NCBI GenBank assembly: GCA_028282565.1 | Contig: JANQHS010000167.1 | Coordinates: 1 to 44,727 of the forward strand | Direction: 5' to 3' | Source: Cytophagales bacterium | GTDB taxonomy: Bacteria > Bacteroidota > Bacteroidia > Cytophagales > CCMP332 | DNA: 44,727 bases | Shown here: piece by piece, positions 39,138 to 43,656 of the stretch | Layout of the letters: every line of letters begins with the position of its first letter | Numbering within the stretch: the first letter of the stretch is position 1 | The notes under the pieces: generated by a model | What the model saw: the letters and a program-made list of their open reading frames with translations, nothing else | Told to the model about the DNA's origin: nothing | The model's database searches: none | Translations under genes and position numbers: made by a program

Positions 39138-39911
39138 ATGTATGTATTGATCATCCTAGCACTGACCTTTTTATTTTTTGCCATTTTCCTGTTGAGAAAA
39201 TTGTCAAACAAGGAATTAAAAAAACTCTCTCTACGGGACCAGGCAAGAATTCACCAACGGAGGTTTCAACGAACAAGAGCTCTGTTGATCTGGAATATTG
39301 CCGTTTCAATTACACTCCTTCTGGTTTTCAGTGGGTTTGAATGGAAGACCTATGGACCAAATGAAATGATCGATCTGAATGACAAAACGGGAATTTTTGA
39401 AGAGCCGCCAACACCTCCAAGAACAATTCATAAGCTCCCCCCAAAACCAAAGAAAGTAAGGCCAAAGATTGTGGAGGTTCCGGATCAGGAGCAAATCACG
39501 GAGGATATTGATATTAGAATGGATCCGGATGATGATCTAAGAACCCCGGATGTCGAGATCATCGATATTGATGATGAGCCTGAACAAATAGAGGTCCCGT
39601 TTATCCTTGTTCCCGAGGTTATGCCAGAGCCAAAGGATGGATTGGCTGGCTTCATGAGGTACTTATCCAAGAATATCAAATATCCCGAGAAGGCTAGGCG
39701 GATGGGTGTTGAAGGCAGGGTATTCGTAGAATTCATCATCGATAAGAATGGAAAGCTCACAAATTTCAAAGTCGTTAAGGGAATCGGATCAGGTTGCGAT
39801 GAAGAGGCGGTCAGGGTTTTGAAAAAAGCTCCAAATTGGAATCCCGGCCTTCAAAGAGGCAGAGCGGTTCCTGTTAAAATGACTTTGCCAATAAGCTTTA
39901 AATTGGGCTAG
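39138..39911 (+). CDS. TonB-family energy transducer with two N-terminal membrane helices
   Basis: A 257-residue protein. The C-terminal TonB domain (about 165-257) has YLSKNIKYPEKARRMGVEGRVFVEFIIDKNG and ends in KAPNWNPGLQRGRAVPVKMTLPISF, as in Bacteroidota TonB. A proline-rich/acidic spacer (about 85-160; PPTPPRTIHKLPPKPKK) spans the periplasm. There are two hydrophobic segments, about 2-19 and 50-66, separated by a strongly basic loop, where most TonBs have one. By the positive-inside rule the loop is cytoplasmic and both ends are periplasmic. exbB/exbD are not adjacent. Confidence 0.88.
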   Translation: MYVLIILALTFLFFAIFLLRKLSNKELKKLSLRDQARIHQRRFQRTRALLIWNIAVSITLLLVFSGFEWKTYGPNEMIDLNDKTGIFEEPPTPPRTIHKLPPKPKKVRPKIVEVPDQEQITEDIDIRMDPDDDLRTPDVEIIDIDDEPEQIEVPFILVPEVMPEPKDGLAGFMRYLSKNIKYPEKARRMGVEGRVFVEFIIDKNGKLTNFKVVKGIGSGCDEEAVRVLKKAPNWNPGLQRGRAVPVKMTLPISFKLG

Positions 39912-39925
39912 TTTTAAAAAAAAAA

Positions 39926-40528
39926 TTGAACAAAATCCGATACATCGCCTTGGGCGATTCTTATACCATTGGCGAAGGTGCTTCCATCGAAGAATCATGG
40001 CCCACTCTGATGGTAGCAAATCTAAAAGCCAAGGGCTGGGATATAGAGCTGGTTGAAAATCCATCCGTCACTGGCTGGACTACGGAAGACCTGATCAAAA
40101 AAGAACTGCCGGTCTTTGATCGATCCAATGCCACACTGGTCAGCTTGCTTATCGGAGTGAATGACTGGGTGCAGGAGGTACCCGCCGAAAAATATTCCAA
40201 AAATCTGGACATCATTATTGATCATGTGAGAAAAGGGCTATCCGATCCCTCGAAGCTTGTGATCATCAATATCCCCGATTTCGGAGTTACACCTGAAGGT
40301 CCGAAGTATTCAAAAGGAAGGGACATCTCAAAAGGGATTGATGATTTCAATGTTATCCTGAAGCTAAAGACAAATTCTCTTGATCTGCCATATGTGGATA
40401 TCAATCCGATCACCAAAGAAATGAAGGGTAGGTCCGAACTGATCGCGAAAGATGGTTTACACCCCTCAGCTCAGGAATATGCTCTTTGGGAACCGCTCAT
40501 TAGAGAAGCTGTAGAGGGGATTTTTTAG
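39926..40528 (+). CDS. SGNH/GDSL-type esterase or lipase
   Basis: A 200-residue hydrolase with block I GDSYTIGEGAS (nucleophile Ser), block III-like IGVNDWVQ and block V DGLHPS (Asp/His pair), so the triad is complete. There is no signal peptide, so it is cytoplasmic as predicted. The start is TTG at 39926, directly after an A10 tract (39916-39925). The substrate is unknown; lysophospholipase or arylesterase activity is plausible for this fold. It follows tonB after 14 bp and is the last rightward gene before the non-coding region at 40529-40797. Confidence 0.88.
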   Translation: MNKIRYIALGDSYTIGEGASIEESWPTLMVANLKAKGWDIELVENPSVTGWTTEDLIKKELPVFDRSNATLVSLLIGVNDWVQEVPAEKYSKNLDIIIDHVRKGLSDPSKLVIINIPDFGVTPEGPKYSKGRDISKGIDDFNVILKLKTNSLDLPYVDINPITKEMKGRSELIAKDGLHPSAQEYALWEPLIREAVEGIF

Positions 40529-40532
40529 CAAT

Positions 40533-40569
40533 TGTTCGAATACGAACAGGCAATCATCCTTTTCGAACA
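40533..40569 (+). promoter_or_regulatory. Putative enhancer (UAS) sites for a sigma-54 activator
   Basis: TGTTCG-AATA-CGAACA (40533-40548) is a perfect 16-bp interrupted palindrome. A second, degenerate copy (40554-40569) keeps the right half CGAACA exactly, while the left half matches 3 of 6 bases. The two centres are 21 bp apart, two helical turns, and lie about 96 and 117 bp upstream of the predicted sigma-54 start at 40657, the usual place for enhancer-binding proteins. Confidence 0.5.
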
Positions 40570-40629
40570 AATTCTCCCAAATCGGAAAATTCAATTTTAA
40601 CACAAAGCTTTTTACGGCAGAAATATTTT

Positions 40630-40646
40630 TTGGCACGAGTATTGCT
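40630..40646 (+). promoter_or_regulatory. Sigma-54 (-24/-12) promoter
   Basis: TTGGCACGAGTATTGCT matches the sigma-54 consensus YTGGCACG-N4-TTGCW at every fixed position, with the GG-N10-GC spacing. It is intergenic and directed rightward. The predicted transcript start is about 40656-40658. It is the only such full match I found in the window. Confidence 0.75.
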
Positions 40647-40656
40647 TGAATATATG

Positions 40657-40819
40657 CGGAGGTTGAATTAGACTTTTTCCCCACCGGCTCAAAAGGTCCA
40701 ATTCACAAAACATTTTAAAAAAGTAATTCGTTACACAAATAAGCATAGTAGTAGTTTTCTCAACATATACATCAATTTTAGTTAAAAGCTGGACCTTTTA
40801 GGTTCGGCTTTTCTTTTTT
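40657..40819 (+). ncRNA. Candidate sigma-54-dependent small RNA (about 163 nt)
   Basis: Between the sigma-54 promoter and a strong intrinsic terminator there is no ORF of useful length. The 5' hairpin pairs 40664-40678 with 40691-40705: 15 positions with one A-C mismatch and one G-U. It exposes a C-rich 12-nt loop, CCCCACCGGCTC, which could act as a seed on G-rich targets. An A/U-rich linker with a small GTAA-TTCG-TTAC hairpin (40723-40734) follows, then the terminator. The 3' arm of the first hairpin (AAAAGGTCCA, 40691-40700) also pairs perfectly with TGGACCTTTT (40790-40799) in the terminator, so two exclusive folds are possible. The last 22 nt are antisense to the end of uvrA. I do not recognise a known RNA family. 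Confidence 0.55.
40784..40819 (+). terminator. Intrinsic terminator of the candidate small RNA
   Basis: AAAAGCTGGACC pairs with GGTTCGGCTTTT over 12 positions (two as G-U), loop TTTTA, followed by CTTTTTT. In the leftward RNA the two G-U pairs become C-A mismatches and there is no following U-run, so it is built for rightward transcription. The uvrA stop codon lies in the loop. Confidence 0.85.
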
Positions 40820-43656
40820 AGCTCCCTCTGCAAAAATCTGCCAGTATGACTTTTCTTGATTCGCTGAATTTCTTCGGGCGTTCCTTCCGCGATGATCTTT
40901 CCTCCTTCCGAACCTCCTTCCGGGCCAAGATCAATAATATGATCTGCCATCTTTATCACGTCTAAATTATGCTCAATGATCAAAACCGTATTCCCCCTCT
41001 CGACCAACTTGGTCAACACATCCATCAGCATTTGAATATCGGAAAAATGAAGTCCGGTGGTCGGCTCATCCAGGATATAAAGCGTTTTCCCCGTATCTTT
41101 TTTGGAGAGTTCGGAGGCTAGCTTAACCCTTTGGGCCTCTCCTCCTGATAATGTTGTGGCATGCTGGCCCAATGTAATATAGCCTAGCCCAACATCCTGA
41201 AGAGTTTGGATCTTGCGAAGGATCCTGGGATGATTCTCAAAAAACTTAACCGCCTGGTTCACGGTCATATCCAGGACATCACTTATGGATTTACCCTTAA
41301 ACCTAACCTCCAGCGTTTCCCTATTATACCTCTTGCCCTTGCAGGTTTCGCAATGCACCAATACGCTGGGGAGAAAATCCATTTGGATCAGTTTCATACC
41401 ACCTCCCTGGCATTCCTCGCACCTTCCCCCCTTAACATTAAAACTAAACCTTCCGGGCTTATAACCTCTGATCTTAGCTTCCGGAAGCTGACTGAAAAGA
41501 CTTCTGATATCTGAAAAGACCCCTGTATAAGTTGCGGGATTTGATCGAGGAGTTCTTCCTATCGGGCTTTGATCAACCTCGATGACCTTATCCAGTTGCT
41601 CAAGGCCTTCGATCTTCTTATAGGCCAAAGGCCTCCTTTTGCTTTTGTAGAAGTTATTCTGGAGAATAGGAAATAGCGTTTCATGGATCAGTGTGGATTT
41701 TCCGCTCCCTGATACACCAGTGACCAGCGTGAGCGTTCCAAGGGGAATACTGAGGTCAACACCTTTAAGATTATGCCCGGAAGCACCTTTCAATACCAAT
41801 GAGCTTCCCTTGCCTTTTCTTCTTTCTACCGGTACCGCAATAGCCCTCTCTCCAAGTAAATAATTTGAGGTTTCGCTTTGTCCTGCGCTCAGGGTTTCGG
41901 GACTTCCATGAGCGACGATCTCTCCTCCATGCCTCCCCGCTCCGGGGCCTATGTCGATGATGTAATCCGAGAGCAGCATGGTATCCTTGTCATGCTCTAC
42001 AACGATTACCGTATTTCCAAGATCCCTGAGCTTTTTCAGGGAATCGATCAGTTTGTTGTTATCCCTTTGATGCAGGCCAATGCTGGGTTCATCAAGAATA
42101 TAGAGGACACCAACCAATTGGGTTCCGATCTGAGTGGCAAGACGAATTCTTTGCGATTCTCCTCCCGACAGGGTTTTTAGCGTTCTGTCCAAAGTCAGAT
42201 AACCCAATCCCAGATCGTTAAGAAAACCTATTCTTTTCCTGATCTCCTTGAGAAGCTCCTTAGCGATCAGATTTTGCTTTTCTGTCAGGCGACTTTCGAT
42301 ATCCTCAAACCAGATCTTGAGATTTGAAATATCAAAGGCCGAGATCTCAGCAATATTCTTTTTATCGATGAAGAAATGCAGGGCCTCCTTTTTTAACCTG
42401 GCTCCATGGCATTCGGGGCATTCTCTCTTAAAATCCTCCTCCTGAACCTTTTCGTCATTTGAAGCTTCAAAGCCCCTGTAATCCTGAATGTATTGAACCA
42501 CACCTCGAAACTTGGCATTCCAAAATGTTCCGGGGTATTTCACCGAGGGCACCGGGATCTTTTTGCTTGACCCGTTCAGGATTACTTCCAAAACCTCCTC
42601 AGGGATCTTTTTAATTTGCGTTGACAGGTTGAGTTTTTCCTTCTTCAGAACCGATTCGATCAGCTTGAATATCCAGATATCCCTGTATTCGCCCAAGGGT
42701 GCGATACCACCTGAAGCAATGCTCAGATTCTCATCCGGAATAAGTGTTTCCTTTGAGTATTCCTCAATAAACCCAAGCCCGTTACATGTAGGACATGCTC
42801 CGTAAGGAGAATTAAAGGAAAATGTATTCGGAGCAGGATCGTCATAGGAAATCCCTGATTCAGGGTCCATCAGGGATCTGCTGAAGTGTTTTGGGTTTTC
42901 CTCGCCGTCCAAAACCATCACACCGCCTTTTCCCCACTTGATCCCAAGCTCAATAGACTGAGCCAGTCTTAGTTTTTGGTCTCGGGAAATCTTGATCCTG
43001 TCTATGACCACCTCAATGTCGTGGGTCTTATAACGATCAAGCTGCATTCTGGGCTGGATATCCTGGAGCTCTCCATTAACCCTAACCTTGGAGAATCCCG
43101 CTTTTGCCAGAGATTTGAAAAGCTCTTTGTAATGCCCCTTTCTCCCTTTCACCACCTGAGCCAGCAATGCGATCATTTCTCCATCGTATTGGGAAAGAAT
43201 AGCTTCCTTGATCTGATCCTCAGACTGGCGGACCATTTTTTTGCCGGAGACATAAGAAAAGGCCTCCCCCGCCCGGGCATAAAAAAGCCTCAAAAAATCG
43301 TAGATCTCGGTCAAAGTACCGACGGTTGACCTCGGATTTCTTGATGTTGTCTTTTGTTCAATAGAGATCACCGGACTGAGTCCGTTTATCTTGTCGACAT
43401 CCGGTCTTTCAAGGTCTCCAATGAATGACCTGGCATAAGCTGAAAAACTTTCCAAATATCTTCGTTGTCCTTCTGCATACAGTGTATCAAAGGCCAGGGA
43501 GGATTTTCCGCTCCCGCTTACACCTGTAATGACAACAAGTTTGTTCCTTGGAATAAGAACATCAATGTTCTTTAGGTTATGCTCGCGAGCACCAAACACT
43601 TCAATGTGCTGATATCCCGTTTCATCATAGCCATTATGGTTGTTTTTAGCACTCAC
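40798..43656 (-). CDS. uvrA: Excinuclease ABC subunit A
   Basis: A 952-residue ABC-type ATPase that finds bulky DNA damage and loads UvrB. Two Walker A motifs ([10 protein letters not shown] and [10 protein letters not shown]), two signatures ([10 protein letters not shown] and [10 protein letters not shown]) and zinc-binding Cys pairs ([26 protein letters not shown] with CETCKGKRY) are intact. [11 protein letters not shown] and [21 protein letters not shown] are family landmarks. The start is GTG at 43656, overlapping the upstream transglycosylase stop by 4 nt. Its last codons overlap the terminator of the candidate small RNA on the other strand. Confidence 0.97.

Follow-up and report, generated by a model that had tools for sequence, protein, structure and literature searches.

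A predicted sigma-54-controlled small RNA gene of Cytophagales with complementarity to a TonB-dependent receptor gene at its translation start

Described systems and the locus compared with them

Bacteroides species are without an obvious Hfq, and two of their small RNAs (sRNAs), GibS and FopS, base-pair with targets around the start codon; long seeds, as well as targeting of start codons, are on record for this genus (PMC7366714, PMC11697453). FopS represses SusC-type TonB-dependent transporters of Bacteroides thetaiotaomicron by blocking translation (PMC11697453); it is ∼65–70 nt long, occurs in 14 copies under sigma-ABfr promoters and pairs through its 5′ end (PMC11697453, PMC7366714). DonS-type RNAs of Bacteroides PULs are antisense to a susC-type receptor gene and lower its expression (PMC7366714). 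According to passages of a report on Flavobacterium psychrophilum (PMC9723704), the sigma-54 regulon of that species covers protein quality control (chaperones), envelope stress, exported proteins and Rfp36, a putative regulatory RNA whose promoter is of the sigma-54 (SM4) type; these passages give no target for Rfp36. RybB and MicA, sigma-E-dependent sRNAs of Salmonella, remove outer-membrane protein mRNAs (PMC1804206).

The DNA analysed here (the window) is a stretch of 44,727 nucleotides from a Cytophagales bacterium (genome G000). It was compared with G001, a genome of the same genus, and with G002, a single-contig genome of another genus in the same family. The RNA predicted from the window would resemble FopS and GibS as a trans-encoded sRNA of Hfq-lacking Bacteroidota that pairs at a start codon. 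Unlike FopS, it is represented by one copy of ∼160 nt with a sigma-54 promoter and an activator palindrome, a pairing region of 36–55 nt beside the terminator and a single receptor as best target; it differs from the FopS/GibS family in promoter type, length, copy number and pairing end, and does not appear to be a member. It is likened to Rfp36, likewise a putative Bacteroidota sRNA with sigma-54 control, by description and not by sequence, and differs from what is described of Rfp36 in having a predicted receptor target. Beyond Rfp36, no sigma-54-dependent sRNA repressing a receptor in Bacteroidota was found in the literature. Like DonS, the predicted RNA is antisense to a TonB-dependent/susC-type receptor gene; unlike DonS, which is encoded in cis beside its target, it would come from a distant locus. 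The circuit logic would be that of RybB and MicA, in which an alternative sigma factor drives an sRNA against an outer-membrane protein mRNA. Those enterobacterial RNAs use short seeds and are Hfq-dependent. The locus studied here carries a sigma-54 −24/−12 promoter with an activator site in place of a sigma-E promoter, and no match to Hfq (PF17209) was found in the three genomes, so the predicted RNA lacks the testable features of RybB and MicA.

When 59 genomes were queried with the gap sequence, good matches were obtained in G001 and G002, both of which carry the RNA gene in the same hydrolase/uvrA gap (Table 1). Conservation across the three genomes covers the promoter, the leader and a core of 36 nt, and the remainder of the gap has diverged. 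Among 391 genomes of the order, the promoter plus leader pattern (≤3 mismatches) was present in these three only; the sRNA gene, known from three genomes of which two belong to one genus, therefore looks specific to a small family. The uvrA loci of Bacteroidales (L014–L092) have a gap without such a promoter, and weak BLAST matches in other families or elsewhere (L005, L006, L007, L012) were AT-rich or coding, again without such a promoter. A protein with a TonB C-terminal domain is encoded at 39138–39911 of the window, two genes from the RNA; the predicted target being a TonB-dependent receptor, this may be coincidence.

Table 1. Positions in the window of the predicted RNA gene, its control elements and its neighbours, with the related promoters found elsewhere.
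Feature	Position	Strand	Basis
GDSL/SGNH hydrolase, upstream neighbour	39926–40528	+	Pfam PF13472, E=5.9e-22; same neighbour in G001 and G002
Palindrome TGTTCG-AATA-CGAACA, putative site of a sigma-54 enhancer-binding protein (upstream activating site)	40533–40548	.	Pattern search; putative function
Additional half-site CGAACA, possible second contact of the activator	40564–40569	.	Also in G001
Sigma-54 −24/−12 promoter TTGGCACG-N4-TTGCT	40630–40646	+	Pattern search, shuffles, conservation
Predicted small RNA, ∼160 nt, +1 at 40657/40658	40657–40818	+	Promoter geometry and terminator
Leader motif GGAGGTYGAATT at predicted 5′ end	40658–40669	+	Common to sister promoters as GAGGTCAAATT
Antisense region, complementary to TonB-dependent receptor mRNA translation start	40741–40795	+	BLAST against own genome; duplex energies
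Intrinsic terminator, stem-loop followed by T tract CTTTTTT	40784–40812	+	13-pair stem with 5 G-C pairs
uvrA, convergent neighbour, 3′ end overlaps terminator	40798–43656	−	Pfam PF17760/PF17755
Sister promoters in G000: C64 (L170), C164 (L226), C300 (L173), C375 (L177)			
Sister promoters in G001: C126 (L178), C104 (L176), C102 (L174)			

Promoter, activator site and predicted transcript

An earlier note on this DNA had read TTGGCACGAGTATTGCT as a consensus sigma-54 promoter, the only one noticed in the window, placed in its largest non-coding gap and suggesting a non-coding transcript. The first three points were borne out: the site agrees exactly with the consensus TGGCACG-N4-TTGCW (−24/−12, GG-N10-GC spacing), YTGGCACGNNNNTTGCW was matched only there on both strands of the window, and the convergent gap of 269 bp (40529–40797) is the largest between the listed long open reading frames (ORFs). 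The chance expectation of 0.005 matches put forward with that reading was close to the mean of dinucleotide shuffles (0.01; one match-bearing shuffle in 100). An rpoN gene and conservation of the elements next to the same flanking genes had been named as checks; G000 encodes rpoN (PF04552, E=1.8e-57), together with three strong sigma-54 activator domains (PF00158), and the −24/−12 elements are kept in G001 and G002.

In the whole G000 assembly the bare pattern TGGCACNNNNNTTGCW was matched twice, as was a reversed control. Without enrichment the sigma-54 motif alone is unconvincing, and since several of its one-mismatch matches elsewhere lie within coding sequence, the bare motif was not taken as evidence of a regulon. 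The promoter becomes convincing through its conservation combined with the upstream palindrome, the leader and the terminator. The block 40629–40647 is identical to G000 at 15/19 positions in G001 (0.79) and at 18/19 in G002 (0.95); for the 29 bp directly upstream of the −24 element the identities are 0.38 and 0.34, respectively.

The palindrome is the sole match in the window at ≤1 mismatch and starts 97 bp before the −24 element, within the ∼80–200 bp before the start expected of activator sites. The G001 version, TGTACG-CTAA-CGTACA, shows paired changes relative to TGTTCG-N4-CGAACA of G000, and that of G002 scores 9/10. The additional half-site CGAACA lies at −66 relative to the −24 element in G000 and at −69 in G001, and is absent in G002.

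Sister sigma-54-like promoters (Table 1) precede genes for small secreted proteins of ∼115 residues with a signal peptide and a sorting-domain-like module, the latter weakly similar to Por_Secre_tail and under the Pfam cut-off. This protein family shares the 5′ leader GAGGTCAAATTAAACTT and an upstream palindrome, located 68–79 bp before the −24 element, and has the appearance of a single-activator regulon. Palindrome scores were 8–10/10 at all nine promoters first examined, and 9/10 at C164, which was found later. The mean over 309 background upstream regions was 5.96, with four regions reaching 8 and none higher, and none of 2000 resamples reached the mean of the nine promoters; these statistics are tempered by possible paralogy among the sister promoters. 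The consensus was derived from the RNA's own promoter, and the sisters scored high though unused in defining it. The combined pattern TGGCACN{19,23}GAGGTYRAATT occurred five times in G000, four times in G001 and once in G002, with no occurrence of the reversed control; three sigma-54 plus leader matches in other families were read as coding (palindrome score 5–6). Because palindrome and leader are common to the sister promoters, the predicted RNA appears to belong to the regulon of one activator. In sisters C64, C126 and C102 the −12 GC is departed from (TTTC, or GGT for TTGC), with palindrome, leader and spacing kept; these are either weak sigma-54 promoters or examples of a relaxed −12 element in this group.

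From the position of the −12 C (40645), the transcription start was set at ∼40657. The leader motif is conserved at 11/12 to 12/12 positions among the three genomes (0.92 for both G001 and G002 against G000). The downstream terminator has its 3′ arm inside the last codons of uvrA, with an overlap of ∼20 nt; its identity to G000 is 0.94 in G001 and 0.69 in G002, where both arms have changed and the hairpin still pairs (GGCTGGTT/AACCAGCC). Between these ends, the middle of the RNA retains identities of 0.57 (G001) and 0.39 (G002). In the window's genome no ORF of more than two codons was found on the + strand downstream of the promoter, and ORFs of 38 codons in G001 and 28 codons in G002 do not correspond to each other, so a hidden small protein was rejected. 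With a terminator in place and the promoter conserved in a related genus, the non-coding transcript proposed in the earlier note is supported as a prediction. Nothing in Rfam 15 exceeded the gathering threshold for the gap RNA; the best model, L20_leader (25.1 bits against a threshold of 58.7), owed its score to the terminator hairpin. The predicted fold, with a 5′ hairpin and the terminator hairpin, was steadier than those of shuffled sequences (z −2.2), and the mean unpaired probability was 0.57–0.70 in the core compared with 0.36–0.43 in the rest of the RNA. No second copy of the sRNA was found in G000–G002.

Antisense core and candidate targets

Two features go beyond the earlier note: the putative activator palindrome common to the sister promoters, described above, and a core predicted to be antisense to the start of a receptor gene. 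The 36 nt at 40746–40781 are identical in G000, G001 and G002, and the core block is identical to G000 at 37/37 positions in G001 (1.00) and 36/37 in G002 (0.97). By BLAST, the complement of the core has one further strong match per genome, located elsewhere: C444:9721–9766 in G000 (E=2.9e-11), C188:4389–4434 in G001 (E=7.3e-10) and C1:2824269–2824308 in G002 (E=8.5e-12). All three sites are the start of an orthologous gene for a TonB-dependent receptor of ∼1,300 residues (Pfam CarboxypepD_reg and Plug; the protein begins M(F/Y)MLRKLLLL) in a conserved neighbourhood, each copy being preceded by the same genes; the G000 copy lies just 3′ of a 2-hydroxyacid-dehydrogenase-like gene.

The stretch of receptor sequence to which the RNA is antisense runs from ∼25 nt before the start codon to ∼25 nt past it; in G000 and G001, complementarity continues into the terminator's 5′ arm (GUCCAG in the target, CUGGAC in the RNA). 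Pairing across the receptor start region includes one G-U pair and two mismatches in G000, and one A-C mismatch in G002. Duplex energies of the 60-nt core region with the receptor start were −61.0, −57.3 and −54.4 kcal/mol in the three genomes, ∼9 to 11 standard deviations under 250 background start regions sampled within 400 kb of G002 (mean −17.0 kcal/mol, sd 4.0, best −27.1); the ranking background comprised these and 60 start regions from stretches of G000, a sample of all genes. In the receptor mRNA leader of G000 and G001 (L093, L094) a CCUCC lies near the likely 5′ end. Pairing of this motif with GGAGG, found at the RNA's own 5′ end, is conceivable but left unclaimed because the RNA leader is shared with unrelated mRNAs.

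On this evidence we consider it likely, with good confidence, that the site serves a trans-acting sRNA gene as its promoter, and that the gene product would lie antisense across the receptor start and block translation. The most durable of the alternatives holds that the RNA is driven by sigma-54 and has its main role elsewhere, through several targets or by binding protein, with the receptor as a minor target or one among many. It gains from the finding that conservation is higher in the core than in the complementary receptor sequence, which has drifted: core and target do not co-evolve strictly, and the core may be under constraint from other targets. A candidate is a lipoprotein gene whose start, TTGATGTATATGTT, matches the core in G000 (C332; L136, 7286..5958) and in G001 (C66; L127), and which is a possible second target. 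Its duplex is much weaker than those of the receptor, however; the −34.8 kcal/mol reached in G000 is past every background start, whereas the −27.5 kcal/mol in G001 is barely past the best of them. The near matches to the core that were inspected in the three genomes are not at plausible gene starts, the exceptions being the receptor, the lipoprotein and one weak case in G002 (L128); in each genome the receptor outranks every other match by a wide margin. A main role elsewhere is thus unlikely.

An origin of the RNA in an inverted duplication of the receptor's 5′ end is suggested by the alignment of its reverse complement with the receptor gene over ∼55 nt with two 2-nt gaps (G000). The same resemblance would be left by a non-functional relic, that is, by an inverted copy of the receptor 5′ region placed next to uvrA and merely persisting. 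An ancient inverted duplication is a plausible origin, but persistence alone would hardly be so selective: the core is 97–100% identical between genera, compared with 38–57% for neighbouring gap positions, and promoter, leader and terminator are also kept, the terminator with changes in both arms. A relic is accordingly disfavoured and we regard it as improbable, more so than a main role elsewhere.

An effect in cis, by antisense pairing or interference at the 3′ end of uvrA, on which the RNA converges and whose last codons the terminator overlaps, is very improbable, since the overlap is short, the terminator would halt transcription there and conservation peaks outside uvrA, in the core complementary to the receptor. 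Equally hard to credit is a chance sigma-54-like match with the conserved element on the minus strand, for instance a uvrA 3′ UTR sponge carrying a sense copy of the receptor start: the minus strand of the core does read like the start of the receptor mRNA and the bare motif shows no genome-wide enrichment, but the −24/−12 elements, the leader at fixed distance and the palindrome are all conserved, oriented for the + strand and found together again at the sister promoters.

Proposed circuit and its meaning

The best reading of the locus is that of a sigma-54-controlled, Hfq-independent trans repressor of an outer-membrane receptor, in which both transcription and repression are predicted. A presumed enhancer-binding protein would bind the palindrome and activate sigma-54 RNA polymerase at the promoter, and transcription from ∼40657 to the terminator (40784–40818) would yield an RNA of ∼160 nt. 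Its largely unpaired 3′ half would present the core to the receptor mRNA, which is encoded on another contig. Pairing over ∼35–50 nt would cover the receptor start codon and so prevent translation, and the paired mRNA would probably be exposed to decay. By analogy with GibS and FopS of Bacteroides, of which FopS blocks translation of its targets, a block of translation at the start codon is the most likely outcome; pairing of this length is in keeping with the lack of an Hfq match in the three genomes. By analogy, the trigger may be envelope stress or surface remodelling, and an envelope-related signal is plausible because the F. psychrophilum sigma-54 regulon, as far as it is described in the passages cited above, holds chaperones, exported proteins and a putative sRNA.

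More tentatively, one activator may turn on the small secreted proteins and, through the RNA, turn off the TonB-dependent receptor. This would be an envelope-response circuit of Cytophagales and a Bacteroidota counterpart of sigma-E with RybB and MicA, its sRNA derived from an inverted duplication; we hold this wider picture to be possible rather than probable.

If the proposed reading is true, a single convergent gap displays a whole circuit from DNA alone, from the activator site through the sigma-54 promoter, the sRNA and its terminator to the target. It would also offer a clear example of an sRNA with a long seed in which the likely origin, an inverted copy of its target, is still visible, and would tie sigma-54, the role of which in Bacteroidota is poorly known, to Hfq-free post-transcriptional control of an outer-membrane receptor.
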